NCBI GenBank assembly: GCA_025449115.1
Contig: JAHLKC010000100.1
Location: forward strand, 1-64,000
Source of the DNA: Chytridium lagenaria
Taxonomy: Eukaryota; Chytridiomycota; Chytridiomycetes; Chytridiales; Chytridiaceae
Direction of reading: 5' to 3'
DNA: 64,000 bases
Shown: piece by piece, positions 1 through 19,155 of the stretch
Layout of the letters: each line of letters starts with the position of its first letter
Numbering within the stretch: position 1 is the stretch's first letter
Translations under genes and position numbers: made by a program
The notes under the pieces: model-generated
What the model saw: only the letters and a program-made list of their open reading frames with translations
Database searches by the model: none
Told to the model about the DNA's origin: nothing

Positions 1-1
1 T

Positions 2-339
2 TTTTGGTGGGGTTATTATCAATTTCAAGGTGCTTCAGAAATACACAAGGATGCCGACGATCTCCCGGAGGGTTGGTGCTTTGTTTTGGCCTTTGGTGAA
101 TGGACTGGTGGGGATTTAAAGCTCCAGGAACTAGGATTTCAGATTAAGTTTGGTTCGGGCACATTAATTGGATTTGTTCATCGCTTATATCCCATGGGAA
201 TACCCCAGTTGAGGGAATTAGGAATTCTCTTGTCTTCTTCACCTGCAAGAACCTATATAAGTGGTTACGTGAGGTGCGAGGACCCCACATGGGGTCTGCA
301 AAACTTAATCAAGTTGAAGAGCTAATAAATCTTATGTAA
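2..339 (+). CDS. 2OG-Fe(II) dioxygenase, TET/JBP-like, 3' part, frameshifted
   Basis: The 5' end lies outside the window. Seen: an HKD triplet (HxD iron ligand) near base 56, then FGEWTGGDL and LQELGF, the usual strand pattern between the iron ligands of double-stranded beta-helix oxygenases. In the starting frame the next motif is lost, but in the frame ending with TAA at 337-339 the protein continues as SLISHGNTPVEGIRNSL, giving the second iron-binding His and the 2-oxoglutarate-binding Arg, then FFTCKNLYKWLRE. One missing T around 172-174 (GGATTTGTTC) explains the break. All four expected ligands are therefore encoded, in two frames. Known: fungal TET/JBP-like enzymes oxidise 5-methylcytosine or related bases and often accompany KDZ transposons. 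Inference: the KDZ gene 3 kb downstream supports such a role. Another 2OG oxygenase family with the same fold cannot be excluded. Confidence 0.6.
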
Positions 340-394
340 GGCTCATAATCAGTCCTCTCGTACCGTGGCCTCGATTTATTTCTTACTAATTTTT

Positions 395-1376
395 GGCACA
401 ATAAATAAACATACCGCCGCATACCGGCGTACACGGCGGACAACGTCCAATGTTTTTGGCAATATAAATAAACATACCGCCGCATACCGGCGTACACGGC
501 GGACAACGTCCAATGCTTTTTGGCACACTAAATGAAGATACCGCCGCATACCGGCGTACACGGCGGACAACGTCCAATGTTTTTGGCAATATAAATAAAC
601 ATACCGCCGCCATACCGGCGTACACGGCGTAGCACAATAAATAAACATACCGCGGCGTACACGGCGGACAACGTCCAATATTTTTTGGCACAATAAATAA
701 ACATACCGCCGCATACCGGCGTACACGGCGGACAACGTCCAATGCTTTTTGGCACACTAAATGAACATACCGCCGCATACCGGCGTACACGGCGGACAAC
801 GTCCAATGTTTTTGGCAATATAAATAAACATACCGCCGCATACCGGCGTACACGGCGGACAACGTCCAATGCTTTTTGGCACACTAAATGAAGATACCGC
901 CGCATACCGGCGTACACGGCGGACAACGTCCAATGTTTTTGGCAATATAAATAAACATACCGCCGCATACCGGCGTACACGGCGGACAACGTCCAATGCT
1001 TTTTGGCACACTAAATGAAGATACCGCCGCATACCGGCGTACACGGCGGACAACGTCCAATGTTTTTGGCAATATAAATAAACATACCGCCGCATACCGG
1101 CGTACACGGCGGACAACGTCCAATGCTTTTTGGCACACTAAATGAAGATACCGCCGCATACCGGCGTACACGGCGGACAACGTCCAATGTTTTTGGCAAT
1201 ATAAATAAACATACCGCCGCATACCGGCGTACACGGCGTGGCACAATAAATAAACATACCGCGGCGTACACGGCGGACAACGTCCAATATTTTTTGGCAC
1301 AATAAATAAACATACCGCCGCATACCGGCGTACACGGCGGACAACGTCCAATGCTTTTTGGCACAATAAATAAACG
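395..1376. repeat. 62/65-bp satellite array with CpG-rich inverted-repeat core
   Basis: About 15 head-to-tail monomers alternate between a 62-bp type (spacer GGCAATATAAATAAAC) and a 65-bp type (spacer GGCACACTAAATGAAG), forming a roughly 127-bp dimer. Each carries the core CCGCCGCATACCGGCG followed by TACACGGCGGACAACGTC, whose CCGCCG and CGGCGG ends are inverted repeats. A shortened pair of monomers occurs at about 613-670 and again at about 1222-1280, so a block of about 610 bp was itself duplicated. Spacers are AT-rich and the core is GC- and CpG-rich. Long open frames on the minus strand are a by-product of the period and are not considered genes. Confidence 0.95.
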
Positions 1377-2604
1377 CATAACACTCAATCCATGCGGTTG
1401 AGCGCGAAAAGGATGCTGTTACAAAGCATACTTGTTGCTACACATCTCAGCTAGCTGTGGTATCATGCGCGGGTCATAGGAAAGTAAAATGGCATAATAC
1501 TGGGTATTCCGGTTCACTCCATAAATGTTCATACCGCCGCATACCGGCGTACACGGCGGACAACGTCGAATGTTTTTTGGTGACAATTTCATCAGCTCAT
1601 TTGATGCAGGGAACGTGGGCCAAGCATTGCGCATAACACTCAATCCATGCGGTTGAGCGCGAAAGAGATGCTGTTACAAAGCATACTTGTTGCTACACAT
1701 CTCAGCTAGCTGTGGTATCATGCGCGGGTCATAGGAAAGTAAAATGGCATAATACTGGGTATTCCGGTTCACTCCATAAATGTTCATACCGTCGCATACC
1801 GGCGTACACGGCGGACAACGTCGAATGTTTTTTGGTGACAATTTCATCAGCTCATTTGATGCAGGGTACGTGAGCCAAGCGTTGCGCATAACACTCAATC
1901 CATGCGGTTGAGCGCGAAAGAGATGCTGTTACAAAGCATACTTGTTGCTACACATCTCAGCTAGCTGTGGTATCATGCGCGGGTCATAGGAAAGTAAAAT
2001 GGCATAATACTGGGTATTCCGGTTAACTCCATAAATGTTCATACCGTCGCATACCGGCGTACACGGCGGACAACGTCGAATGTTTTTTGGTGACAATTTC
2101 ATCAGCTCATTTGATGCAGGGTACGTGAGCCAAGCGTTGCGCATAACACTCAATCCATGCGGTTGAGCGCGAAAGAGATGCTGTTACAAAGCATACTTGT
2201 TGCTACACATCTCAGCTAGCTGTGGTATCATGCGCGGGTCATAGGAAAGTAAAATGGCATAATACTGGGTATTCCGGTTCACTCCATAAATGTTCATACC
2301 GCCGCATACCGGCGTACACGGCGGACAACGTCGAATGTTTTTTGGTGACAATTTCATCAGCTCATTTGATGCAGGGAACGTGGGCCAAGCATTGCGCATA
2401 ACACTCAATCCATGCGGTTGAGCGCGAAAGGGATGCTGTTACAAAGCATACTTGTTGCTACACATCTCAGCTAGCTGTGGTATCATGCGCGGGTCATAGG
2501 AAAGTAAAATGGCATAATACTGGGTATTCCGGTTCACTCCATAAATGTTCATACCGTCGCATACCGGCGTACACGGCGGACAACGTCCAATGTTTTTTGG
2601 TGAC
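1376..2604. repeat. 255-bp satellite array, about five units
   Basis: Units begin near 1375, 1630, 1885, 2140 and 2395 (GCATAACACTCAATCCATGC), spaced exactly 255 bp and almost identical; the last is cut at about 2604. Each unit contains one copy of the CpG-rich core of the neighbouring 62-bp satellite plus about 190 bp of different sequence, so it looks like a later composite amplification of a core inserted in another sequence. Two of the units (near 1780 and 2035), and the truncated fifth, carry GTCGCATACC where the others have GCCGCATACC, a possible C-to-T transition at a CpG. A 74-residue minus-strand frame recurs in each of the first four units and may be a relic of coding sequence, but nothing in it is recognisable. 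Confidence 0.95.
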
Positions 2605-3316
2605 GGACGTATACGCCGGTATGCCGTCCATTTGGCTACTACATTTTTGATACAATAGCCTTTTTTATTTAAATATTGTATAAATTACGCTGGTATATTG
2701 TTTTTCATGTTTTTTTTACAACCCGCAAAGAATGGAGAATAACGTCGGTTTGTATACCGGCGGGTACTGGTGTAAATTTTTAATTGGAAAGGATATTGCA
2801 TTTTACATCGAATTGTGTACGACCGTAGCTAAGCGCATCCTACCGTCTTAGGAAAAAATCGTCGAAATTTTATTACTTGTCGTCGTTTTTGACCTCGGTA
2901 TTTATCCCGAGACGAGGGTCCAGAGAACGGGCCGGAGACGGAATGCGAGGAGGACGTTGCGAAGACGGTCGTCGATGTCCCCGTCTTTGTTGTACGGTTA
3001 GTAACCAAATTAATTAGATAATAGAGTGTGTGTGAAATTTCGTGGAAGAGAAGGGAAAGGAGGCGAAGGGTTTTGTCTCTAATAAAATAAAGAGGGTGGG
3101 TGTGTATCTTCATGATTTGCCGTGTAAGCCATACAACCATTAACACAACATGGTGTCTTTTCATATTCAATATTTGTAGACCTCAACATAAGCTTGGGGA
3201 GCTGATAGATAGAAATTGCTGGCCTGTCGACTTACCATAGTGTTAATCCAACTAAAAAAAAGTTGAGTACCCAACACCGTATTTTGTAAATCCATGAAGG
3301 CGGTATCAGTTATCTT
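2605..3316. other. Satellite edge and AT-rich region before the KDZ gene
   Basis: At 2612-2626 TATACGCCGGTATGC is the inverted copy of the last satellite core (2569 onward), forming a large imperfect inverted repeat at the array edge. A further related fragment (GTATACCGGCGGGTAC) lies near 2753. From about 2866 a stretch ending GGTATTTATCCC matches one at 7877-7927, downstream of the KDZ gene. No convincing gene is seen between 2640 and 3316. Confidence 0.5.
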
Positions 3317-6300
3317 ATGTCTGTTTTTTGTTTGCAGAATTATTTTATTTGCCGTGACCTTGTCAAAATCCACGTTGAAAACGTGATTGTCCGTGATTTT
3401 AACGGAAGTACCATGTATTCTGCAAACTTGGGGACCTTGAGAGATAGGCCCTATACCAAATGGGAAAAATACATGCAAAAGAGGTTAGCCTTGAAGGGCC
3501 TAGTTTATACACGCGGGAATTTAGGTATTCCTTTATGGCTTGCCGTTTGCTGATGATCTTAAGATGCATACGTCGAAAAGGAGCTTTCTTGGACTGTACT
3601 TGACTCTGGTTCCGACACATCCCAAAACACAAGTACTCCTTTGCATGGGGCCACCTTTCAGGATGCTTCTAGTTTACAAGCAGCAATAACGGAATACACT
3701 TTGATGGATCCATATGGTGATGTTACAATTCAGGATGGTGAAGGAATGGACAGGGATATACCGGCAGATATCAATATATCTGGATCAGACCGAATTGGAT
3801 ACGGTCCAAATGAGTATGATAACCAATTCTAGTATGTCATCTAATGTATTGCACCATAGCACTGAAGAATACCGACGAAAAGTGTTGATTGATTACAAAG
3901 AAAGTATTCTAAATCAAGAAACCACTGCAGCTCCTCGTCCCAACAACGTATTCATTCTTCAAGACTATAGCGCCAATCCTAAAGTGAATCAGGTATCGAC
4001 GTCATGATCTAACAGCTACTGATATTTGGAAGAAAACTAAATTCGTTTCGCTTCAAATATACAATATGGGGATGGAATTGGAGCGAACCGAATGCAACTG
4101 CACTCGTAGAATATCGACTTGTATACATAAAGACGTTATCCCCTTTGTTAAAGATCACATTAAATATCCGCAAGGTGAGCTTAGTTTTTTCTCGGACGAC
4201 AAAGTTGTCCACAACAGCGGTATCAGACAAGTTGTACGCTTACCGCTAATTACGAACGTTTACTAGCGTTGTTACACGCATAAAGCCGCATTTGTTTGGT
4301 TGTTTCCATAACTGCACGCATACTGTTTTCAGCTTACCGCACCTTTATTAGTGTATAGCTGATCGCATGCATTTTTTTTTTTTTATCTTCCACACAGATA
4401 CAGACCCGTTTATAAGTCTTCACTTTGACAAGAGATTTAAGATATTCGCGGTTCTTGATGAAAGAATTACTACTGGATCGCAGTGGCTTATACTTCGCAT
4501 GTTCATCAACAAAAGCAACAAGGTGGCTTTCCACTGCGAAGGTATCCATTGCAGAAATGGGAAAGTCAACGTCAGCCCATGTTATCACATTGATGTCCTA
4601 CGAAAAGCTGATCCAAGTACATTAAGCTTCAGTCAACAAGTCGTATCTCCTGAAGAGGACGAAAAAAATGGTTCGGTGTCTTGGAAGCCAATACCCCCAC
4701 CGCATTATTCACTTCTTGAACGTGAGGCTAGTTTTTGGCCTCCAAGAATCTTCAGGGCTGGAGAAGATGCGATTCTGAACCCTGGCACTGTCTTCTACCT
4801 TGAAGGTGACTCTCAATGCGTCTGCGGATTAAAGATACAAAATTGCGATTCTGAAAAAAGATTTCGGTGGTGTATGCTATACACAGAACAGGGTGCCGTT
4901 CGCTGCTTTATTGAAACAGCAAAATGCTCTCGTTGCCCTCCAAGGTATAACAGATTTATTGGGCCTGACCTTGGAGATCGGGGAATATTCAATAAGAACA
5001 ATTTCTGTCTTATAACGCACTTTTTCCTGGACAAGATAACGGAACTGATTACCTCAACAACATTCTCCTTTCACGCTTACTCAAAGCACTTACAGTCAAA
5101 CTATAATGAGTTTAGTCGGGGAAGGTGCCTGTACAAGCCTCCTTCTAGTAAAGTCATATCTGCGGTAAGTCATCACTTGTCATAAATTCTTTTCCGTTCC
5201 ATTCCTGCAAGCTGGCCAGGTACTGCTTGACCATCTGGATCAATGATCCAAATGCCCGCATACTAACGTTAACGGCGGTAATACACCACAAATAAACGTA
5301 TTTTAGCGTTTGCGGCCGTCTGTTTAAGTGTATAGCCGTTAACGGCCGTATGCGTTAATTTTGTACCTACTTCCGGGAATCCCTAACTTTTTTTTTAGGC
5401 TTGGTTTTCCTTTCGTAAGACACAAGATTTAACCATGGGCATGGATATACAATGCCCATTCTGTAAGGAAACTGGCTACGATATGGTTGCTTGTGACGGT
5501 ATCAGCATTGGTTATCAAGAAGACAAAAAGACAAGCAACCTCATCCCACCAACATTCATCGATTCATACAGCAGTGAGAACAACACTGTGAACTACTTAG
5601 CGTCAAAACAGGTGAGAAATTCTTTTGCAGTGAATATTCTAATATGGCATAGTTTGTGCCTAGCAGAAATGTTAGACAGGCAGGACGAGAGTTCTGCGAT
5701 ATATTCAAGCATGTGCATAACGGTGTTACGCGTCAAATGAAAGCAGCTGGAAAAGAGTTGGGATTGCTTTTAAACGTATACTGGGACAATGCACCGCGTT
5801 TCATGGCATTCATACTTAGAGATGAGACATGGACCCCAGCTGAAATAGCGGCGCTTAGAACTTTGCTTAAAGTAGTGAGTATATTTCATTGTGCCGTATT
5901 ACTCTTTGACCTATCGTAACATCTATAAAGATATTCTGTGAACAGTCAGTTGTTACAATCATATTGCCTGTCGGTGATAAATGTCTTCAGGAATTAGAAC
6001 GCTGGGAGCAGCTAGATGTGCAGGAGAAGTTGACTTTGATTGATGATCTTCGTCAAAACGTACCTTCAGTCGGCAATTTGTTATTTGAGGTCATTGTTGT
6101 TGGAAACAACACATATTTACCGGAAGAATTCATCAAACTTGCTCAATGGTTAAGAAAGAGAAGGAATGTTGTTGAGAGCCAACATAGCCGCCATCCTGTA
6201 GCGGATCCAAAGACAACCGAACATGGAGATTATGTGAACAAAAACTGGCAAAAAGTAAGTACAGAAACCGTACAAAACCCCATGTAACCGTATACAACCG

Positions 6301-7087
6301 TATACTGCTATGTACCTTTGTATACTGCCGTTTACGTTTGTGTGCGCCCGTCTCTGGACTACGCTTTCAAAAGACAGGTTCCTTTTACTTTTTACCTGAA
6401 ATACGGCAACGTCCACGATATCTCAACCTTGGACCTGCAGACAATCTACCTACAGCAGCTAAAAAGGGGACAACGGAAGCTGACGTTTGTCCTAAATATT
6501 ACGACAGGCAGAGGAAGGCTAAATCAATGACGGCTGGAGCAATGGTTTTTTTATGTCGTCATCGATTTTATATTGGATTTCACCTTTTTCCTAAAGCTGA
6601 AAGCATCAATGATGTTTTCGCAACTCTATACACAAGGTACCATACCATTTAACAATTTAACTCTAAATCTTGCAGGTTTGAACAGTGCCCATCCATTTGT
6701 GTTGGTGATAATAACTGCCATGCTGCAGACTACTGCACTTTGCGGAGTACGAATTCTTCAAAGATTGTCGATTTGTTATAGACGATTTTCACTCAAATGC
6801 TCACAGGGGCTGTTCTGCTGCTTCTCACGCAAAACACTACAGAAAGCATATTAAAATTGGAGATCTTAATACGAGCTACACCGAATCGGCCAACCACAAC
6901 ATGGGAGTCTTGCGTCAAATGGTTTCATATATGACTGAAGGACATGCTATTATGACTATATTCACCTACATTTGTATGGCAAATAGGACGGTTTGGAAGG
7001 AACTGTCAGTGAAGGGTAGCGAATTGTTTTTAAAAAAGTTTGCATGTCGACGATGAAGAATATATAGTGTCTTATTACAAAAGTTAG
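3317..7087 (+). pseudogene. KDZ-type DNA transposase with SWIM and CxC clusters, disrupted
   Basis: Reads as a multi-exon gene. In order: early exons at about 3340-4007; an exon at about 4020-4266 with a SWIM finger (CNC..., CIH; pattern CxCx6CxH); a long exon 4390-5164 with a cysteine cluster (CVCG, CSRCP) and the FSFHAYSKHL stretch; an exon from 5398 with DIQCPFC and ACDGISIGY (likely first catalytic Asp); further exons to 6254; and a C-terminal part with GFHLFPKAES, CVGDNNCHAADY (second Asp), DDFHSNAHRGCS and NTSYTESANHNMGVLRQM (likely Glu). This order matches KDZ transposases with CxC5/6-like clusters and the related vertebrate HMGXB3. An intron at about 6637-6675 splices cleanly (AG|GT...GCAG|G). 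A one-base shift near 6737 separates the last two catalytic blocks, and the junction near 5664 is out of phase, so the copy is broken or mis-sequenced. The start codon is uncertain. Confidence 0.65.
5230..5375. repeat. GC-rich palindromic repeats inside a KDZ intron
   Basis: Between the exons ending near 5164 and starting near 5398 there are several TAACGGCGG, TGCGGCCGTC, TAACGGCCGTAT blocks that fold back on each other. Similar TACxxCCGTATAC blocks occupy the gaps near 4263-4345 and 6283-6350. They share the CGGCCG/TACG vocabulary of the palindromes downstream at 7150-8100. Confidence 0.6.
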
Positions 7088-7149
7088 TTTACAATGACTA
7101 CGTTGAAATGGAACCGTAAAATTCAAATGAGTGCAAAAGTAACTTTCAA

Positions 7150-7510
7150 ATAACCATCTGATGCCCGTAAACGGCCGTTACCAATTTCTTTTACATTAGA
7201 CAAACCGCCGATCACGCCGGTTTACGGCTACACGTCATTTTTTATGGCCGTTAGTTTTATGAATGAATATGATATAATTTATATTAAAATCGCTGACTTT
7301 AGAAACGAATGGCATAACCCTCCAAACATAACGCTTCTATATGTTTGGAGTGATTAGGTAGCATCCTGAACCATTTAATGCATTCGAGCGCAAAAGTAGA
7401 TTCATGCCGATAGCAGAAGGAACAGTATACAACCGTAGACGGCCGAATGCGGTTATGATAGGATTTCCGTCTATAGCCGTCTACGGCCGTTTGCGGCCTT
7501 TAGTTTCTGT
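7150..7510. repeat. Dispersed CGGCCG-containing repeats and first copy of a direct repeat
   Basis: GTAAACGGCCGTTACC (7167 onward), CACGCCGGTTTACGGC (7212 onward) and ACGGCCGTTTGCGG (near 7480) are related short palindromic blocks. Bases 7346-7441 (TGATTAGGTAGCATCCTGAA onward) are about 80% like 7631-7735 (TGATTCGGTGGCAGCCTGAA onward), sharing CCATTTAATGCATTCGAGCG. No gene is recognised. Confidence 0.7.
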
Positions 7511-7630
7511 CTAACTTTTAAAACAGGATTTGCTTGCTGGTCCGTGTTGACCGGTGGCTGTCAGTTGAAAGATACAAGGTTCATCTTTTGCTATGCTGCT
7601 GAAGATTAGAAGAGCTATGCCATGGCAAAG

Positions 7631-7735
7631 ATTGGCGTGATTCGGTGGCAGCCTGAACCATTTAATGCATTCGAGCGCAGAAATAGTTTCATGCTGAAAA
7701 CAGAGCAAACAGTATACAGCCGCAAATGGCGGTGT
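7631..7735. repeat. Second copy of the roughly 100-bp direct repeat
   Basis: Imperfect copy of 7346-7441 about 290 bp downstream. Both contain CCATTTAATGCATTCGAGCG and CAGTATAC followed by an ACxGCCG block. It is probably a tandem duplication within the decayed element. Confidence 0.75.
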
Positions 7736-7942
7736 ACGATTAAATTTTGTGCAACAAAAAATTTACTAATGCTTCCGGCTAATTACTGCCGTTTTTGTCA
7801 AAGCATTGATGAAACTAGATTGGTAATGTATTTTGGTAACCGTACATAACCGTATGTTTACGATACTGTCATGAAAATCGACGAAGTTTTTTTAGTTGTC
7901 GTCGGTTTTGACCTTGGTATTTATCCCCCGGATTTAGTAGCC

Positions 7943-8150
7943 ATTTTAGTGCTGGTAAAGGTCAAAACCGTACACGGCCGTTGCGGCCGTGTACGCTTTG
8001 ACTTAAACCAGCTAGGTACGGCCGTTCACGGCCCAAACTTAGTATACATTTTAGTGCCGGTAAAAATCAACCCGTACACGGCCGGAACGTCCGTGTACGG
8101 CCTAACCCGGATTAAAACCAGTACTTTGGTAACATATGTCAACCGGTTTT
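7943..8150. repeat. 105-bp tandem repeat with perfect hairpins
   Basis: Two units start ATTTTAGTGCTGG (7943) and ATTTTAGTGCCGG (8048), period 105 bp. The first contains a perfect 12-bp inverted repeat CGTACACGGCCG (7969-7980) and CGGCCGTGTACG (7984-7995) around a 3-base loop; the second contains CCGTACACGG (8072-8081) and CCGTGTACGG (8091-8100). These are the strongest hairpins seen in the window. Confidence 0.85.
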
Positions 8151-8566
8151 AACATAGGTGATATGACTCTTAAAGTCTCCTTGCCTTCTTGCTATGGCAA
8201 CTTGTGGAATGTGACTCTCTCGTTGCCTCACGAGCTGGCACAGGGTAACCTCACTCATCATCTGCCAATAGCGTCAATCTTCTGCTTGGGGATCATCAGA
8301 AAAAAGGTGAAATGTAGCCGACCAAGCATAAGCTAAATGACACTGACAATGAGGAGGACCCTTAGGCTCCAACGGCAGCCTTCTGCTTCAAACGGTGATT
8401 ATGGTTTCACCAGGTGGTGGGTAGAGGGTTGGCTGCCATCCAAGAAGTAGTGAAGGGAAATCACTGCGACGCACTGGTATGAGATTGAGGATGGTGGATT
8501 GAGGTTAATGAAACGGTTGGAAATGGGTGGCAGATAAATTAACTCGTCGCCGCATATGAAAGGATT
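8151..8566. other. Intergenic, nothing recognised
   Basis: There is no conserved frame. This is the 3' flank of the minus-strand F-box gene. Confidence 0.5.
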
Positions 8567-9985
8567 TTATTTCTTTTTAATGGATACCGCAGTTATTACA
8601 ATGTGCTCCTCCCAATGAGGCACTGTCGACCCTCCCACATCGTCCTCAAACACCACAACAAAAGGTTCTCCATCAAGATGCCGATAATCCTGATCCCACT
8701 TGTAGGCACTCACACGTCCCCTCAGCGGATCAAACATGACAAAAAGTGTCGCCGCCTTCATACAGCGTGCGAAAGTACATCATCCTCGCAGGTTGCAGCG
8801 GAAGAGGGCTGTACATAAAACTATAATCAAGAAAGTCATGTGCCTCCTTCGAGATCTTCTGATGGTATGTCTCTAAGGAGGAAGCCAAGTTGTGTTTGGA
8901 CGGTGTCGTAATCATAACTACCTCGATCAAAGCGGATGAACGCGATCCCCACAAGGCATTGCTACGTCATCTGTTTCGATTCCCTCCCAATGCATCCACC
9001 CCGTCTCATTGGTATTAGTTTCGAATATGTTGGCAGCAAAGAAATGCTCATTTCCATCATCATTTTCGTAGGTCAGAACAGATGTTCCTAAAAGCGTTGT
9101 CCAGCAGATATCTTGATCGGAGTTGGAAATATCGCGAGGACCGTAACTCTCTATGCCTTCATCTCTCCAGTGGCAGCCGTTGCTGAAGGTCAGGCCGCTG
9201 CCGTCATGGTTTAGGCGATACTGGAGGAAAGTTGGGGAATCTTCGCCACCGAATCCAGTGAGAACTACCCCCCAGCTGCTGGTAATGGCTCTTGGCGTGC
9301 CGGTGAAGATACCGACTGCGTTTCTAAACACATCGGTCGTATCCCCGACCATATTAAAGTCTTTATGATTCTCATCCCAGATATAAAGCCCAATGTGATC
9401 TTGATCGCTGACGATGACGACCAGATTTGTCCCAGGTATGGACCGCACTGTACCCTGCGGAAGAGATGGGGAGAGTGTAATCTTCTCGTTGTTCAGGAAA
9501 TCGTGAAACACCATCTCTTCCACTTTCTGATCAAAATTCGGCTTCTTGGGCTCTATGAACATGACAAGAACGCCTGTTCGATTAGCCAGGTAAAGCGCAT
9601 CCATTCGAACATTACAAAATGGACCATAGTCTTCTTGCCCGTTAAAAATGGCAAGGATCCGTCGACGTCTTGCAGAGCCAGGTCGGTGTGGGTCTGGAAG
9701 GTGCTTGGGCATCTCAGGGACTGACTGAATGATCTTGAACTCAGATTCCAACTGTATATCTGGCGTCACAAGTAGATCCGAGTGGTATATGGCTGCATCG
9801 CAGCGGTCCTGAGGCAAGATGTTGTGAACTAATCCAGGAGGAAGGCGGTGTTTCCAGATGTTGGCGTCTTGAGAAAGAATTCGCACGCAGGAGCTGACGG
9901 CCCTCAATCTCACCAGGGTCTTGAGATCGCAGAAACGGAATATTCGAATCATCACATCGGCGTGTAATGTGTCGTGGGCCCACAT
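8567..9985 (-). CDS. F-box protein, frameshifted at the 3' end
   Basis: The main frame (9985 to 8927, 352 aa) begins MWAHDTLHADVMIRIFRFCD, an F-box (residues about 5-48: LHADVMIRIFRFCDLKTLVRL, then VSSCVR and IWK). F-box proteins bind Skp1 and recruit substrates to SCF ubiquitin ligases. The rest is a long beta-rich region without clear WD40 or Kelch repeats (IGLYIWDENHKDF), probably the substrate-binding part. The stop at 8927 looks artificial: a second frame (ALIEVVMITTPSKHNL) and then a third (TLFVMFDPLRGRVSAYKW, VFEDDVGG) continue without a gap to 8567. The second break, near 8746-8750, coincides with a T5 run, and the first is near a G4 run at about 8946. The likely full product is about 470 aa. 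No intron is needed. Confidence 0.65.
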
Positions 9986-10594
9986 GATTGTCCTCCGTCG
10001 GAAGTCGGGTTAGGGTTAGAACCGGCACGAGTCGCACGACGGGAGCGATCGAGGAGGATGAACAGGAAAGTCGTGCTCAGCTCTATTAAAATGTTGTGGT
10101 CAGTCAGGTTTACTTCACAAATTACCTAGACCTTGTGTTCATGTATTGTGTAATAATGTCAGAATACACTGTGTTCTCAGAGACGCACTCCTTCTCAGAG
10201 ACGCACTCCTTCCATATATTTACCTTGAAGGCATCCGTCTTCACACCCTATTTAAGTATGCGCTTTGCCATGAAAAATAAATATAAAATAAAATTTGGGT
10301 TCATTACATGCAGATACGCAGAAGGGAGTCATGGAAGTCTTGTGGACTTAATGGTGACGCGTTGATAAGGTTATCCCAAAACCAGCTAGGACGGCAAAAC
10401 AGAACCAAAAAAAAAAACAACCAGTTCATTCATACATCAAATAGATAATACCACATAAAAAAATAATACTTGTTAATAATGAAAAAACAGATAAACAGAT
10501 ATGGATATACACAGACATACTACAACACTGCCAGGGCAAGAACACAAAAACTCCAAAAACTCTCCTTACGTGAGCACAACAAATCACCGATAAC

Positions 10595-12849
10595 TCACAA
10601 CCATCTCCCTCCTCTTCTTCTTCCCCCTAAAATCCCCAACCTAAACCCAGGATACCTATGCACCTCCTCACAAAACACACTCCCCCTCAAATCTCCCTCC
10701 CTCAGCGCCGGCCATTCCCCACTCGCCCCCTTCACCCCACCGTCCTTCTGCACCAACCCTAAAAACGGGTGTCTCCACAGCGCATCCCAAGCCGTGATGC
10801 GTTTCCCAATATCCCCCTCTAATAGCCTCGCCAACAAGTCTGCCGCATGTCGAACAGCAAGGTCTTTAACAACTTCACACTCCTCATCGGTGACGACCAC
10901 AGCGTCCTCACAGTGGGTGAGGCTTGGAACACGTTGAGGGGGTGGGCGGTGGAAGAAGCCAAAGGTTGGGGCGGATGCCGCAAACGTGGGTAACGCTGGT
11001 GGCGTGACGCAAGGGGGTCGATACCCGCACAATGCATCGCGACGTTCAACGCAAGCTCTCAAGCGTTTGGATGCAAAAGTAGTGGTGGTGGGTCGGACAA
11101 GTCGACTGCCGAGGTACTGCAAGGACATGCCCGGGAGATAGGGTTCAAGAAGTTGACCGAGGATGATGCCAGCGCTGTACATGTCGGCTTGTGTGCAGGA
11201 ACCTGTGCCGTCGAGGATTTCGGGGGCTATGTAGCCGCAGGTACCGCGGCCTTGCGGATGAGGGGTGGAGGTGCAGCGACGCGAAAGACCATAGTCAATG
11301 AGTACGAGGTTGTGGGAGGGGGAGGAGATGGAGGGGTCTCGCATAAGGTTGGCGGGGGTAACATCGAGGTGGGCAATGTTAAGTCTGTGAAGACCTTGTA
11401 GTGCCTGTTGTATGAAGTAGGGTTAAGAGCTAAAATACGGTGGGTAAAGAATGAAAAAGGGGATAAATGTTGTAGACTCACCTTGAACAACTGACGGGCG
11501 ACCAACGCGATATCACAAAGATCTAAATTCTTTGTCGAGAATTTCTCCAACGCCGGCATCACCAAAATCGGTCGACTCTCACCCATTGCCACATCGCCGA
11601 CCACAGCAGGCATCATCCATCCCTCAACCGCCAAATCCACATCCTCCATCTCAATGACCTCAATGACCCTCAGTGTATGCGGAACGTTATTCGTTTCCAA
11701 AAGTTTCATAAATTCCACCTCCTGTTTCGCTAGCACCGGATCGTGTATGTACTTGAGGACGACATTGGTATTGCATGGAGTTGTCGCGAAGTAGATGGTA
11801 GACATATCGGTTGTGATCGTGCGGGGTTGGGAGGTGACGGGGTCAATCGTGAGGGTGTATCGAGGACGTGATGGGTCCATATGTAGAGGATTGAAGGTGG
11901 AGGTGGAGGTTAGGGAGAGGTCGAGGTGATCGTCAGAGAGCAGGAGGGAGGATGAGGAGGAGCAGGAGGTCAAAGAGGAGGAGGCGAAGGAAGCGTTTAA
12001 ATGGGTGTTGGGGCGGTTAGGGATGGGGATGGGAGCTGTAGTTTCGCGAAGAACAGTCATGGTGGGAAGATGGCGCGCTTGAGATGAAAGTGCAAAGGAG
12101 AGTGAGGAGAGTGTTGATGATGCCGCTGTTGGTGTCAAAGACGATGAAAACGGCTCAGGGTTGGTAGGTTCCAAAAGAGAACCCTCGCCGAGAGAGGAGA
12201 GCGATAGGTTGGCGCAACGAGCTTTCGGTGATCCAGAAGGGTTTGAGCGAGAGATGGCGATAGGAATGAGGGGTACTGGACACGGAACGGGACCTGGTGC
12301 AGTGTTGTGGCAAATGTGGTTTGGACGGGCTTTCGAGCCTTCGTCAATTGGGAGGGAAGCCGCTGTTGTTGTTGCTGCTGCAGTTGTAGCCTTGGATGGT
12401 AATGACGATGATGAAGAAGATGCTGATAAGCATAAAGGCGGAGCAGTGACAGCGCCGTTATCATTCGTGCAGATGACGGGGGAGACGGGTGCTTTTGCAT
12501 GCAAGGCAAGCATGGGAAGATGTACACCAGAATCCACTGGCGCAGAGACTGTTCCAGAGCGAGACTCTGCCATGTCGTCTAATATGTCCAAAGGTGATGA
12601 AAAGGGCGGTGTGGGAGGAAGTGGTATAGAGATGGGATTTGAAGCACCTTGCTTCAATAGATCGTGGTGATGCTCCAAGTTGCTGATGGCAGGAGGCGAT
12701 GAAGGAGCACCGCTAGAATATCCGCAATCAGAGTCTGTAGGAGAGTTGGGAATACTGATGGCAGCAGCAGCAGAAGTCGAGGCCTTTTCAGTGATGCAGA
12801 ATTTAGCGGGTGTAGTAGAGATGCTCATGATGCGGCTGGGAGAGTCCAT
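10595..12849 (-). CDS. Atypical Ser/Thr protein kinase, CDC7-like
   Basis: Two exons, 12849-11482 and 11404-10595, join in phase through a 77-bp GTGAGT...ACAG intron and give 725 aa without frame breaks. The first 330 residues are Ser/Pro-rich and probably disordered. The kinase domain starts at about residue 335: a VVLKY Lys, hinge ILVMPALEKF, catalytic loop HLDVTPANL, LIDYGLS, then GTCGYIAPEIL and DMYSAGI, and the late RITAWDALWRHPFL motif. A long insert (about 100 residues) lies between the Gly-rich part of the C-lobe and the last motif, as in CDC7-type kinases. Unusual residues are HLD for HRD, Thr for the catalytic-loop Lys, and DYG for DFG; the glycine loop is not obvious. It may have low activity or act as a scaffold. 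The family assignment is tentative; kinase fold is near certain. Confidence 0.8.
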
Positions 12850-13528
12850 TGGCTGGGTAGGAATTAGCCTTTTACCGGCCCTTTATCCTTCTCTCGATGT
12901 TATGTAGTGAAATGATGGGCTAATGGTGCGAATGGAGCAAGAGAAAGTAGTTTCGGGGGGTGAAGTCGAATGTGTCGTGCTCAACTCTTTCTTTTTTTAT
13001 AAGCAGCCCCCAGACGAAAGTAGACCTTTTGAGTGAGAGATTCGAAAGAAGGATGGCGACTCGTTGGAGTTTGCTTGTTGATGGGTATAAATAATTGGAA
13101 TTGGTTACAGAGTATGGCTGTTGAATGAATGACGGTCGACGACAGGGTCAAGTAAAAAAGATGGAACGACGACGGAAGGAAGGAATGATGGTGGGCGCAA
13201 CCAATTCGACTCCAGAATTAAATTTTAAATAAATAAATATGTGAAATAAAATGAATTGGACAAAAGTGGAAAGAAGAAGTAGAAAAAGAAGTAGAAAGTT
13301 TACTGATTAATTACAATTATTTTTAAATTTCTAACTTCTATGATTACACTACCAGTGATGCATGGTATAAATGCCGTGTACAACTCTCTCACAAAAGCAT
13401 TAACCAACGTCATTGCCTCATTACCCAATGAATAATTAATTAAATAAAATCATAAATAGAAAAGTATGTGTAACATTTCTTATCGCAACCAATTAAACAA
13501 GAGGAGATAAAAGCAATATAGATTTGGG
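12850..13528. other. AT-rich intergenic region upstream of the kinase gene
   Basis: Contains a TTTTTTATAAGCAG box near 12990 that could serve as a TATA element for the minus-strand kinase gene only if inverted, and long A/T-rich stretches at 13215-13510. No gene is recognised. Confidence 0.4.
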
Positions 13529-14437: not shown

Positions 14438-15337
14438 AAAATTAGTTTATAAAAAATGGAATAACTTAGAAGCACATTAACATGACACTAATGCCTTTAT
14501 TTGAGCTCTTGGTTTCATTTTCATTACAGTTCAGCGATGGAACGGATGTAACCTGTTGCTTTTAAACTGATGCGATGCTTAAGGTGGAGAAGGAAAACGT
14601 TGACGTTCTTCTTTCCGCGAAGACCGTAGATGGCCGGCGCCGAGAAAAAAAAACATTTAAATTTAATCAGACGTGTAAAGCTGTAGAACGTGCACCTCTA
14701 CGTAGTCTCACATAGAAGTATTTCGACGTTGGAAAAAACACCAACAGCATTCTCTACTGAATAAGAATTAATCCTTTTTACTTTAAGCCATTCTCGTAGT
14801 TTTTAAAACCACGTCGTAAGTGAGCATCACAAAAATAATATGCAGCAATGAAATGCATTACCATAATTTCCTCAATGTGCTCAGAATTATATTTGCGCAT
14901 GCTCAAAACCTCCCCAAATTTTGTCGATTATGCCTTTACCTGGTTCGTACAGTCTGATTTGTTCTCTGCTTCAGGTTTACTCACGCCTCTGTCTTTGTCC
15001 GCAGCAGTGCCTTCATAATTTATTTAGTTAATTTGATATCAACAAATTACCTCTATGACCGTCTCTCTATCTTAATACTGCTTATGAGAGCATCCAGAGT
15101 CATCAATGTCATTTTAGCGGTTGCCGATGTTGTCTTTATGGCAAGTCAAAAGTGTATTTTTTCCAAAGTCCTTGTAACATTTAGGGAAGATGGTTTGCCA
15201 CGCAGGTATAGCCTCTGGGTTTGGGTATGAGCTATATGAGCCTATATAGGTTGCTCAGCAAATATCAAAAAAAATACTTGGGTCTTCAAATGAGCCAGCC
15301 TAGGTTGATGGTAAAGAGAGGAGCAGATGTGGGACTC
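14438..15337. other. Intergenic, nothing recognised
   Basis: There is no conserved frame up to the solo LTR. A degraded remnant of mobile DNA is possible but not supported. Confidence 0.4.
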
Positions 15338-15342
15338 TGCGG

Positions 15343-15633
15343 TGTTGAGATTCATACTCAGAGACCTTGGACGTTAGGCGTTACGCGTCCTAAAACCAAA
15401 GTTACTTTGCTCCAATTGTACTACAGGAGATTCTGTAGCAGTGGTTATAAGAGGCGAGCTTACGGGGATTTACGTGCGGAACGCGTGTGGACGCGCCAGT
15501 CTCTGGACATCCCATCAGCCCATACATCACTTACATTGTACGACGCTAAATACCTCGTCCTCTCTCCTCTCACTGACATACACATACAATAAACATATAG
15601 GTCTCCTCTGCGACCATCACTCTTTATTGCACA
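15343..15633 (+). mobile_element. Solo LTR, Copia-related, with 5-bp target-site duplication
   Basis: The 291-bp sequence starts TGTTGAGATTCAT and ends CTTTATTGCACA (TG...CA ends) and is flanked on both sides by TGCGG (15338-15342 and 15634-15638), a perfect 5-bp target-site duplication. It aligns over its length with the LTR following the Copia pol remnant at 30587-30880: both have GTTGAGATTCAT, then a CGGAC/TGGAC block, ACGCGT, a TAGCAGT block, GGGATTTA, ACATCAC, an AATAAAC polyadenylation-like motif and TTCTTTATT or CTCTTTATT at the end. No internal element remains, so this is a product of LTR-LTR recombination. Confidence 0.85.
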
Positions 15634-15638
15634 TGCGG

Positions 15639-16184
15639 TGCCATGGTGGAGATCCTTAAGTTTTTTAAGCGTCTTCATCTTGTCTCCCTCATCTCCTTTC
15701 CTCCGTCCTCCGCTACCGGCATCTTCGCTCCGCAACGATGCATAGTGTCGATTATAACGCGTAGGCCATACAGTATCAATGATACGTCGCGTCAACGTGG
15801 TGAATATGATGCGCTTTTTGAAAGACGGAATGTAAACATTATTTCAGCTGTGAGGGCAATAGGGGGTCTTGTTCCATGAACTCTTCTGTGGTTTTTCAAA
15901 GACTTGGCTTTTCAAATATGGAAATTGGTGGTTACACTTTGATGTTGTACAGACAGGCCACAAGGTTTAATTCTAATTAAAAATATGCACTGCCTTTTAT
16001 TCGCCCTTTACACACATTTTCTCAAATGGTCATAAAACCCCCAGTAGTCGTTGTTGTCTCTCCACTTCCTCCATCTTATTAAAGACCTCATTCTTTCATT
16101 TACTCTCAACCTCCCTTCCGTTGGGAGCTAAAACGAAACAGGAGTGTGTTGTCCGTTGTCCATCTCTAACGTCGTCGTCATAAG
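15639..16184. promoter_or_regulatory. Upstream region of the WSC-like gene
   Basis: There is no gene. The last 160 bp are pyrimidine-rich (CTCTCCACTTCCTCCATC, CTCAACCTCCCTTCCG), a common feature just upstream of fungal start sites. An in-frame TAA lies shortly before the ATG at 16185. Confidence 0.35.
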
Positions 16185-17483
16185 ATGAGCGGATCTTGCA
16201 GGGTCATTCGCGCCGACTACCCCGCATCCATCCCTTACACCTCCAACTTTGAAACCTGTCGTCGTCACTGCGGCACCCAAACTGACCCTCTCTACACCTA
16301 CCACGCCTTTGTCTCCCCCACCTCCTCCACAAACCCTACACTCGCATGCTTCTGCATCACACTCGATCTTCGCTCCGTCTTTCTCCTAGCAGGTGATGGT
16401 CAATGCCAGCCATGCCCTTCAGATCCAGGGTACCTGTGCGGGACAAACATGGGCGTCGTGGACGGGAGGGAAGCTAAAAGCGCCATGCTGTATTTGGGTT
16501 TAAAGGATGGGGAAACAGTCCCACCCATCCCGTCTCAAACCGTGCAACCGCCTCCATCATCTTCTCCACCGCCTTCTCCACCGCTTCCTCCACCTGGAAG
16601 CACGCAAACGATTGGTGCCTTCTCTTCCGCATCGTCAGAAGGCGCATCATCAGTGCAAGGAACCGTCACCGGCAACGCACTCACTACAATCTCTCCAGAA
16701 CAGCTGGGTAGCGTGACTGTCCGTCCAGCAGGCATAAACACTCTCGGAGCTCAAGCCGTCACCTCCATTATAGGACCAGGTGGTACCCTCATCCCTGCTC
16801 CCGGTCCAAACGGTTCCGGAAACGATACCTCATCATCGTCATCCTCTCAAGGACTCAGCACACCCATCATAGCAGCCTCCATCGTCGCAGGACTCGTCGC
16901 AGTGGCAGCTATAATGGCCATCATGGTTGTCCGCAGAAAACGGCAACGCGCTCAAGATCCCGCCAAATTCTACACCGAAACCTCACCCAACGATGGTTCC
17001 AGCGTTTTCGGTCTTGTCGCAAACGGCGAAACGTTTCAACCAAGCGGTATGCAACCCTCATCCGTTCGCATGATGCCCGGAAACGATGTCAAGGTTTACC
17101 CTTCAACTTCTTCAAATGATGGTGAACCACAGCTGTTCCCAACGTTACCGACTCCATCGTCTTCATCGCGAGTCAACGAAAAGGCACTGCTTCAAGTACA
17201 GCCGAATGTGGTGAACGAGAAAGCGATGCTACCGCTCAAGTCACCACCATCGGACAATGAGAAAGCATTGCTCGCGCTTCAACAAGAGACGCTCAATGAA
17301 AAGGCTGAGATCGAGTTACGCGCGTCAACGTCGCAGCGTGTTCCTGTTCCTCGTGTTCAGTCGTTGTTGGGAGTGCCTCCTGCGTTGGGAGTTCAGGGGA
17401 GGACGGGATCGGTGGCGGGATCTGTGGGATATGAGGAATCTTTGCCAATGTATTCGGAGGGTGTGGGGAGTAAGGAGAATTAG
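16185..17483 (+). CDS. WSC-like single-pass surface protein (copy 1)
   Basis: 432 aa, single exon as read. Residues 4-100 hold about nine cysteines in WSC-like order (CRVIRADYP, FETCRRHC, LACFC, GQCQPCPSDPGYLCG). A Pro/Ser-rich linker (residues 110-225; PPPSSSPPPSPPLPPP) follows, then one transmembrane helix (about 227-248, TPIIAASIVAGLVAVAAIM) with a basic stop-transfer (RRKRQR) and a 180-residue cytoplasmic tail containing four NEKA repeats and a C-terminal EESLPMYS. Known: WSC proteins sense cell-wall stress in fungi; function here is inferred. No signal peptide is visible at this ATG, so a small upstream exon may be missing. A paralog lies tail-to-tail 259 bp downstream. Confidence 0.75.
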   Translation: MSGSCRVIRADYPASIPYTSNFETCRRHCGTQTDPLYTYHAFVSPTSSTNPTLACFCITLDLRSVFLLAGDGQCQPCPSDPGYLCGTNMGVVDGREAKSAMLYLGLKDGETVPPIPSQTVQPPPSSSPPPSPPLPPPGSTQTIGAFSSASSEGASSVQGTVTGNALTTISPEQLGSVTVRPAGINTLGAQAVTSIIGPGGTLIPAPGPNGSGNDTSSSSSSQGLSTPIIAASIVAGLVAVAAIMAIMVVRRKRQRAQDPAKFYTETSPNDGSSVFGLVANGETFQPSGMQPSSVRMMPGNDVKVYPSTSSNDGEPQLFPTLPTPSSSSRVNEKALLQVQPNVVNEKAMLPLKSPPSDNEKALLALQQETLNEKAEIELRASTSQRVPVPRVQSLLGVPPALGVQGRTGSVAGSVGYEESLPMYSEGVGSKEN

Positions 17484-17742
17484 TGGTACAATGAATGAGC
17501 TTGGGTTTATCACAAGATGTATTGATTTGATGTGGGAAAAGAAATGATAATAATGTAGAGTATTTATGTGCTGATTGCGCACAGTGCTTATTAAAACGAC
17601 ATTAGAACATTATAACAAAAAATAAGAAATAAGTAGTGGTGGTAATCTAAAAAAAAATTAAGAGGCTTTTCTTTCTTTCCCTAACACCTCAACGATCCAA
17701 ACGAAGACGACAAAAAAACAAAAAAAAGAAAGAAAAGGTCCC

Positions 17743-19155
17743 TTATTCCCGCACATTCACCGAATACATTGGCGGCGCTTCTTCCACCATACTCCCCGTT
17801 CCCGTCATCACAGTATCCCCCCTCATAGCACCCCTTTGCGAATGCACTCTAGGTGGTGCCATAAGCGCCTCCTTCTTGCTCCAACTCAACCCCCCCACTT
17901 CCGCCTCCTTTGCATGCTTTTCATTCGGGAACAAAGACGTTGATAATCCTTCCGTCAAATAAATGTCGTGTTTCAATGAACCGCGTTTGGTGGAATTCAT
18001 GGGAGGCGATGTAGAGAATAAACCATGTTTGGGTTTTTGGTCATTGTTGGGGATGTAAGTGACAGCGATTGGGGTGACAAGAGGTGCGGAATCCGCGGGA
18101 GAAGAGGCTATCGCGGGAGAAGAAGCCATCGCATGTGAAGCTGTAGTCACGTTCGTATCGCTGTGTTCGGCTCCAGATGGAGCAGCAGTTTGGTTCGTGG
18201 TATCATCAGAGGGGGGAGCATCACCACGTGGTGTAGCTGCAACGGCAGAATTCTTGATAAGAGTAGCATCAATATCCATTTTCCTTCTCGTGCTTCTTCG
18301 AAAAAAGAACAGCGCCGCAGCTCCCACCACCACTACCAAGGCCGCACAAACCCCTCCGACGATGACGGCAGTATTACTCGATGACGACGATCCAGAGGCA
18401 CCGTCCATCGCAGAAGTTGGTAAAACACTGGCAGTTGTTTCCGCCATTACACCAGATGTAGTGGGACGTCCTATGACAGCATTGACGGTAGCCAGCGTTT
18501 GAGGACGAGCTGTAATGATACCGTCAGTACCTGTGACAAAGGTTGTCAGGGTGATGCGTTGGGTTGCTGATGATGGGTTTTCGGGCGATGGATTGGCGTC
18601 GTTGGGTTGAGTGGTAATTGGTGGTTGTTGTATGGGAGAATCAGGGGATTGGGATGGGGATGGTGATGGGGGTTGGGGTTGAGGTGGGGGTGGAGATGAA
18701 GATGGGCTTGGTGGAGGGGCTTCAAAGATAGCGTCGTGGAGGTATACACTTTTGGAATCTACTGGGGGGCGTTGTTGAGCGGGATTTTCTACTATGTTTC
18801 CGACATAGCTTCCGCAGTTGTAGTTGGGGTCAGACCTGCAAGGTAGGCATCCTTCACCACCTATTTTGTTAATCAAATATGAAATGTTGTTAATTAAAGT
18901 AAAGCGTCGATGCTATAGATGGCTGGGTTTGATATGCTCATAAACACTTGAAAACAAAAACTTACCAGTTGTGATAAAGGGATCATCTGTGCGAGAGAAA
19001 CAGAAACAGCCGGGATTAGTGTTGGTGGCTGAGATGGGTGAGATTCCAGCTTGGTATCTTGTTGAGGAAACGGTGCCGCAGTAGACGAGGCATGCACGGA
19101 CGCTTGTAAAGGCCGTGGATGGGGGTAGACTTGCCTCAATGTAGCGACAGGACAT
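17743..19155 (-). CDS. WSC-like single-pass surface protein (copy 2)
   Basis: Two exons, 19155-18966 and 18860-17743, joined by a 105-bp GTAAGT...AATAG intron, give 435 aa with no frame break. The layout matches the neighbour at 16185-17483: Cys-rich head (MSCRYIEAS, CLVYCG, GCFCFSR, GCLPCRSDPNYNCG), Pro-rich linker (PPPPQPQPPSPSPSQ), one helix at about residues 227-250 (NTAVIVGGVCAALVVVVGAA), basic RRSTRRK, and a C-terminal EEAPPMYS. The shared pieces include the SDPxYxCG motif, an xARP/xVRP motif in the stalk and the terminal PMYS. Outside these blocks the sequences have diverged strongly, and only this copy has an intron. No signal peptide is visible at the chosen start; an upstream exon ending in CCAG (before CAGAACACACAATG) is possible. 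Confidence 0.75.

Follow-up and report, generated by a model that had tools for sequence, protein, structure and literature searches.

Evidence for a TET-carrying subfamily of KDZ transposons in the chytrid Chytridium lagenaria

Introduction

Do a TET/JBP-like oxygenase gene and a KDZ-type transposase gene that lie about 3 kb apart and in the same direction in the genome of Chytridium lagenaria belong to a single mobile element? The pair occupies the first 8 kb of a 64,000-nucleotide stretch of DNA (JAHLKC010000100.1, positions 1 to 64,000; hereafter the window), which is the start of contig C100 in an assembly of 41.9 Mb and 356 contigs. An initial annotation had suggested that the two genes, with the CpG-rich satellite between them, might form one compound element. 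Comparison of copies across the genome separates the pair into two insertions and finds the two genes combined elsewhere. The reading that we favor, at a probability of roughly 0.7, is that C. lagenaria harbors a KDZ-superfamily transposon family, in one subfamily of which a Tet_JBP gene follows the transposase and CpG-dense arrays lie near both ends, the roles of transposase and TET being predicted ones, and that the adjacency of the two genes in the window is incidental.

TET-type enzymes can erase DNA methylation marks. Kojima 2025 (PMC12730594) places TET-carrying KDZ transposons in three groups, the Pucciniomycetes, Agaricomycetes and Pezizomycetes (mushrooms, rusts and truffles), all of them Dikarya, and the transposon TETs named in passages of a 2026 review (PMC13297926) are confined to Basidiomycota and Pezizomycetes. 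The terms chytrid, satellite and tandem repeat are all absent from the main text of the former (PMC12730594).

Results

The window joins the tail of one element to a truncated copy of another

As initially annotated, the window begins in a 2-oxoglutarate (2OG) oxygenase. The frame at 2-325 (plus strand) encodes a C-terminal fragment of a Tet_JBP gene with an HxD motif (HKD), and its sole Pfam match, to PF12851 Tet_JBP (E 0.004), reaches 16.8 bits where the cut-off demands 34.9. Downstream of the gene fragment lie a 63/127-bp CpG-rich tandem array (390-1375) and a 255-bp tandem array (1375-2604; 4.8 copies, 98%), both delineated by TRF, followed by a 3’ terminal inverted repeat (2855-2908, plus strand) with the end GGTATTTATCCC. 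As a unit, nucleotides 1-2908 (plus strand) correspond to positions 14597-17908 of a complete copy on contig C114 (blastn, 95-98%) and are what the window has of a KDZ-type transposon with TET, namely its 3’ portion; the contig start falls inside the TET exon, so that the transposase half of this element is missing from the contig. Homology to the C351 and C114 copies ends at 2908-2912, where the element is followed by GAGACGAG (2909-2916, plus strand), the presumed 3’ copy of an 8-bp target duplication whose 5’ copy would be off-contig. The 410 bp of inter-element DNA (2909-3318) are unlike either element, and their first 192 bp are 97% identical to C71:179415-179603. Contig C71 is continuous across this site, where it has one GAGACGAG and no TET-type 3’ or 5’ end; it thus appears to represent a paralogous, element-free site, which supports the border at 2908.

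The second element (3319-7927, plus strand) is a KDZ element without TET that aligns with positions 8270-13162 of the 13,162-bp copy on C39 at 95-98%. Relative to C39 it lacks 8.27 kb of its 5’ side, and since the window contains neither a 5’ terminus nor a second flanking 8-mer (CCGGATTT) for it, we regard it as a truncated copy. Its KDZ-type gene (exons at ~3.3-7.05 kb) lies in the direction of the TET gene, as the initial annotation had it, and includes an exon with the CxC4 cysteine cluster (4352-5185, plus strand; PF18717, 5.7e-25, 88.1 bits against a cut-off of 26.9), an exon found as an open reading frame (5399-5740, plus strand; by itself without a Pfam match) with the stretch CDGISIGY, which we take to hold the candidate first catalytic Asp, and an exon with the stretches IDDFHS..H and NTS..E.AN (6715-7056, plus strand; PF18758, E 0.027). 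The letters of the latter two stretches, presumably catalytic, are invariant in a six-member family alignment. The CxC cluster had been recognized from the outset, while the SWIM domain reported beside it finds no Pfam match in the 10 window frames searched. Towards the 3’ end the element retains a remnant of a 286-bp repeat typical of the 3’ region of the TET-less subfamily (7345-7730) and a 3’ terminal inverted repeat (7874-7927, plus strand); the segment 7850-7927 occurs at 16 genome places, the window included, with 95-100% identity (genome-wide match counts here and below are lower bounds). Homology to C39 ends at 7927. Both element borders in the window terminate in GGTATTTATCCC and continue into unrelated DNA, and these two ends, at 2908 and 7927, are the only matches in the window, against a mean of 0.00 in 100 shuffles.

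The shared strand, the distance of ~3 kb and the intervening satellite would all fit a single compound element in which TET, satellite and KDZ share one set of termini. An exact element end at 2908, between the two genes, together with the element-free site on C71 leads us to reject this arrangement for the window. In addition, 410 bp of other DNA follow that end, the first 192 bp matching the element-free site; the downstream KDZ copy is 95-98% identical to the TET-less C39 element but only 69-79% identical, where aligned, to the TET-carrying C114 element; and in C114 and C170 the order of the two genes is reversed. A single element spanning the window pair is therefore exceedingly improbable. 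The window holds the tail of one TET-carrying element followed at 410 bp by a truncated KDZ element that lacks TET, and the two are neighbors only incidentally. Both genes are identifiable, as first described, but both are damaged, the TET gene by the contig start and by a frameshift that the alignment places between the HxD and the distal His, the KDZ element by its missing 5’ side. The satellite is likewise real and CpG-rich but belongs to the tail of the TET element: the 63/127-bp array recurs in the C114 element and the 255-bp array in the C114, C170 and C351 copies. An independent intergenic repeat was considered and rejected, the satellite lying inside the TET-carrying element in C114, C170 and C351.

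A complete element carries both genes on contig C114

The complete TET-carrying copy (C114:1028-18935) measures 17,908 bp from its 5’ terminus at 1028 to its 3’ terminus at 18935, has imperfect terminal inverted repeats and is flanked by a perfect 8-bp target duplication, AGATGATG, at 1020-1027 and 18936-18943. From 5’ to 3’ its interior starts with a 91/182-bp array, an antisense accessory gene and a 117-bp repeat. The KDZ exons come next and are separated by a 302-bp array from the Tet_JBP exons, behind which lie the 63- and 255-bp arrays and then the 3’ terminus. The transposase exons thus precede the Tet_JBP gene, and both point in the same direction. No terminal-repeat match lies between KDZ and TET in C114, so that TET does not form a nested element of its own bounded by such termini. 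A second insertion, on C170, repeats the order of C114 from within the CxC4 exon onward, is 98.5-99.5% identical to it in the two longest aligned blocks and has a different 3’ flank. The C351 and C73 copies contain TET, arrays and 3’ end on contigs that stop short of the transposase position. In all, TET with this tail and 3’ terminus is present in five insertions (C100, C114, C351, C73 and C170) with five different 3’ flanks, and the transposase is seen in both of those with enough contig (C114 and C170). A compound element of TET and KDZ thus exists, not in the window but elsewhere in the genome and in the opposite order, and inverted repeats with an 8-bp target duplication enclose both genes in C114 and not in the window pair. 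The initial annotation had made its idea depend on linked copies at other places; C114 and C170 supply them, and the idea does not fall on that ground.

The termini of the family read GGGTTATATCC...GGTATTTATCCC, an imperfect inverted repeat with GGG..CCC ends, and the reverse complement of the 3’ ends, diverged, is found upstream of complete KDZ copies. The two termini align with a score of 42 in C114 and of 66 in the TET-less element on C39, where 1000 random interior pairs each reached no more than 25 and 38, respectively. The C39 element (C39:63795-76956, 13,162 bp) is flanked on both sides by ACCCATCC, and target duplications of further TET-less copies are CAACATTT (C221) and GGTCTTCA (C155). 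In C229 the 8-mer GAAAACAC stands on both sides with four extra bases (ACCC) before the 5’ terminus (C229:1361-1480), perhaps reflecting imprecise insertion. Hence the duplication is clean in four of the five elements with both ends read, C114 included and C229 being the exception; for a sixth, on C349, the 5’ flank only was read. Terminal inverted repeats combined with 8-bp target duplications are the features of the Zisupton/Dileera side of the superfamily, and the Kyakuja features (7-bp duplications, CA..TG ends, no inverted repeats) are not seen.

Membership in the KDZ superfamily was judged, and affirmed, from a PF18758 domain together with a CxC cysteine cluster. The cluster scores above its cut-off, and PF18758 is recognizable below its own in this subfamily, so the profile check came out firm for CxC4 and short of the threshold for KDZ. 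The six database relatives of the KDZ protein are all from C. lagenaria; PF18758 is matched at E <=0.1 in five of six C. lagenaria family members (best 1e-5), one relative (P0002) bears a precomputed PF18758 assignment, and 17 PF18758 matches above cut-off occur elsewhere in the genome. The CxC4 exon has 71 genome matches, some of which are fragments of the same place, and four other places match nearly the whole exon at 99%.

The antisense accessory gene near the 5’ terminus is present in the TET-carrying element (L064:2769-3483, minus strand) and in the TET-less C39 element (929-1655, minus strand). The two versions are 45.5% identical over 101 residues (E 3.5e-22), and the C114 copy has no Pfam match above its cut-off.

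Four TET sequences keep the predicted catalytic residues

The TET sequences of C114 and C351 score above the Tet_JBP cut-off of 34.9 (~37.6-37.8 bits each) and match no other Pfam family, the C114 exon searched as a protein giving 1.6e-9; the assignment of the oxygenase to TET/JBP was thereby borne out. The cut-off is missed by the window fragment and by divergent paralogues on C46 and C79. The window piece is 81% identical to C73 and 85% and 88% identical to parts of C114 and C170. In an alignment of four C. lagenaria TETs, two of which are 94% identical, H78, D80, H128 and R137 are invariant, so that the HxD...H iron triad and the Arg, which we take to bind 2OG, are found in all four. All four read HKD, and having HxD they are not of the PE type. 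C114 and C351 keep an open frame in the catalytic exon. Protein searches with TET (5.8 billion proteins; shared 5-residue words needed) returned C. lagenaria only (1/1 and 3/3).

Relatives of the window frame 2-325 amount to 13 matches on eight contigs (C100, C73, C351, C114, C170, C46, C42 and C79). The divergent paralogues C46:77739-80885 (L018) and C79:153556-156699 (L021) are 45% and 42% identical to the window TET piece and keep the catalytic residues; on C46 a terminal-repeat match lies ~6 kb from the TET. That the C79 TET forms part of the KDZ element on C79 was considered and rejected: upstream of 164,401 only TET exons match the two reference elements, and these exons lie 9 kb off and on the other strand. 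A TET-like fragment on C42 (C42:265398-268514, L020; E 1.3e-4, two stops) is located ~1 kb from a Plant_tran/DDE_Tnp_4 frame on the same strand (PF04827, 5.5e-34), presumably a Harbinger-like transposase, and the pair is possibly a TET captured by another transposon superfamily.

The arrays are CpG-dense and some TET-less copies show a possible trace of methylation

The window arrays (390-2604) have a CpG observed/expected ratio of 1.47, versus 0.88 for window positions 8151-64000. Counted in 1-kb bins along the C114 element, CpG peaks at 8.3 and 8.1 per 100 bp in the two array regions; the remaining 3’ array region has 6.2-6.8, and the 13 bins between the arrays have 2.9-4.8. In the TET-less C39 element CpG rises less, to 6.0 within the first kilobase, to 5.6 between 7 and 8 kb and to 4.8 in the 12-13 kb bin. 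The 5’ and 3’ arrays share four 8-mers, against a mean of 3.24 in shuffled units, and thus no motif above chance. Short CpG-rich repeats also occur at 7934-7995 and 8039-8099 of the window, beyond the end of the second element (7927) and outside it.

Transitions at CpG are in mild excess in three of nine aligned stretches, all from TET-less pairs (12/37, 8/15 and 5/11; one-sided p 0.041, 0.003 and 0.050), numbers that are small and p values that are not independent, as the pairs share copies. The TET-less pairs included the C39 element compared with the copies in the window, on C221 and on C349. One more TET-less pair lacks the excess (5/21), and two further TET-less stretches contain zero transitions. 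Light CpG methylation of TET-less elements in this chytrid is a possible explanation. Hypermutation resembling repeat-induced point mutation (RIP) is absent from the copies compared. The genome has matches to the C5-methyltransferase (PF00145) and MT-A70 families, which makes methylated substrates plausible as a prediction from family matches.

Points that weigh against the reading

The observations that carry our reading are the termini, the target duplication of the one complete TET-carrying copy, the gene order in two insertions and the recurrence of TET with its tail in five. Several others weigh against it. To begin with, a single TET-carrying copy (C114) is read from end to end, C170, C351, C73 and the window giving partial support, and none of the seven other TET-type 5’ flanks pairs with any 3’ flank as a target duplication would require. 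The KDZ domain of the window’s subfamily scores below the PF18758 cut-off of 26.6 (window 14.6 bits, C39 16.0 bits, nearest relative P0001 22.0 bits). The TET-type 3’ end (2610-2908) occurs at eight genome places including the window (96-100%), five of them with TET; the ends on C182 and C206 have contig room yet no TET match, and that on C35 is too near the contig start to tell. Similarly the TET-type 5’ end occurs at eight places (97-100%), of which the seven besides C114 each have <14 kb of contig left on the side they face; those on C244 and C61 have room for a transposase and no match to the window’s CxC4 or KDZ exon, so that deleted or differently filled derivatives exist. No element of this kind is seen around the TET-like places on C46, C79 and C42, of which the first and last were read over ~3 kb only. 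Linkage of the two genes accordingly holds for C114 and C170 but not for these places or for several of the element ends. Elements with and without TET are not CpG-depleted (observed/expected 1.07 and 1.04), and the TET-carrying pairs lack a significant excess of CpG transitions (0/4, 5/12 and 6/26).

The catalytic exon, moreover, is frame-shifted in three of the five element-borne TETs (C100, that is the window, C73 and C170). Decay of this kind would be expected had TET been picked up by rearrangement in one recent lineage as a passenger with no role in the life cycle of the element. In keeping with such a history, TET-less 3’ ends are found at 16 places (95-100%) as compared with eight of the TET type, and several TET-type ends come without TET or KDZ. 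A mere passenger, however, is at odds with the tail and 3’ terminus that TET shares across five insertions with different flanks, with the absence of internal termini, with catalytic residues that are invariant across divergent paralogues and with the frame kept open in C114 and C351. We consider the passenger explanation unlikely, though it deserves to be taken seriously, and retain TET as a component of one subfamily.

Other points concern the identity of the enzyme. Searched against solved structures up to E 10, the C114 TET exon matches two sequences only, both of CcTET from Coprinopsis cinerea (PDB 7vpn, 7w5p and 8jkk), and does so weakly (E 0.3), with the HxD and distal His aligned. A profile of the four TETs gave no hits to solved structures, and two AlphaFold models (mean pLDDT 34.6 and 45.0) were too poor and were left unused. 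According to Kojima (PMC12730594), Gly331 and Asp337 of CcTET matter for 5-methylcytosine (5mC) and N6-methyladenine (6mA), AG-type transposon TETs have Asp at position 337 and Gly or Ser at 331, and the PE type has HxE for HxD. In the weak pairwise alignment with CcTET (E 0.3) the C114 TET differs at both positions, with Asp at that of Gly331 and Cys at that of Asp337. These substitutions, along with the weak score of the window piece, are what an oxygenase of another 2OG family (e.g. AlkB-like), not acting on 5-methyl bases, might display. Such an assignment is improbable given that Tet_JBP is the sole Pfam family matched, and above cut-off, by C114 and C351 and that the CcTET pair provides the only structural matches, and we continue to treat the enzyme as a TET.

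Contig ends and neighboring genes

KDZ/TET copies lie within a few kb of contig ends on C156, C98, C255, C103, C141, C353, C73, C351 and C100. Copies crowd these ends, and the assembly therefore seems to break at the long KDZ/TET repeats, which makes the copy counts minima. Beyond the second element, window positions 8927-12882 (minus strand) contain likely host genes, among them a protein kinase (10595-11422, minus strand; PF00069, 2.4e-18) and an F-box-like frame (8927-10009) that at 19.5 bits stays below its cut-off of 20.5. Rfam has no match in the window at the gathering threshold.

Discussion

The TET-carrying element of C. lagenaria is of the same kind as the known elements of Dikarya, belongs to a phylum for which we found no report, and has an unusual array architecture. 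In the literature searched no report of a chytrid TET-carrying KDZ transposon was found; a mention is possible in Iyer et al. 2014 (PNAS), which is said to be the founding paper. As Kojima describes them (PMC12730594), TET-carrying Dileera/Zisupton elements resemble the C114 copy in having a KDZ transposase and a TET/JBP gene between their termini and in 8-bp target duplications, which are described for Zisupton and for Zisupton-1_PGr of the Dileera lineage, so that the likeness is one of gene content and duplication length; they differ in that their hosts are Dikarya rather than Chytridiomycota and that C114 has large CpG-dense arrays inside the element. TET-carrying Kyakuja of Laccaria and other Agaricomycetes, as the same source presents them (PMC12730594), also combine the KDZ superfamily with a TET gene, whereas the two Kyakuja families described lack inverted repeats and have CA..TG ends with duplications of 7 bp, in contrast to the 8 bp and inverted repeats seen here.

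If the proteins act as their families predict, the KDZ transposase would move the element by cut and paste and the TET protein would oxidize 5mC, or possibly 6mA, as the methylated base in the DNA of the element. The CpG-dense arrays would be natural target sites at which this oxidation probably takes place, and it may let the element escape silencing. A more specific proposal is that the arrays, whose CpG density is up to about twice that of the interior, are the element’s own methylation-sensitive docking sites, which its TET oxidizes to license binding or expression of the transposase. We regard this as quite unlikely; were it true, a transposon would have captured TET in a fourth fungal group, and the host would be a chytrid, whose group is said to have mainly 6mA and very little 5mC.

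Early-diverging fungi are described in passages of the 2026 review as having near-undetectable 5mC and abundant 6mA (PMC13297926), with exceptions to the low 5mC such as Phycomyces noted in passages of PMC11258239. The presence of a TET-carrying KDZ element in C. lagenaria suggests that the partnership of KDZ and TET predates Dikarya or arose again independently. Because early-diverging fungi are described as poor in 5mC and rich in 6mA, such an element in a chytrid also poses a testable question, namely which base these enzymes attack.

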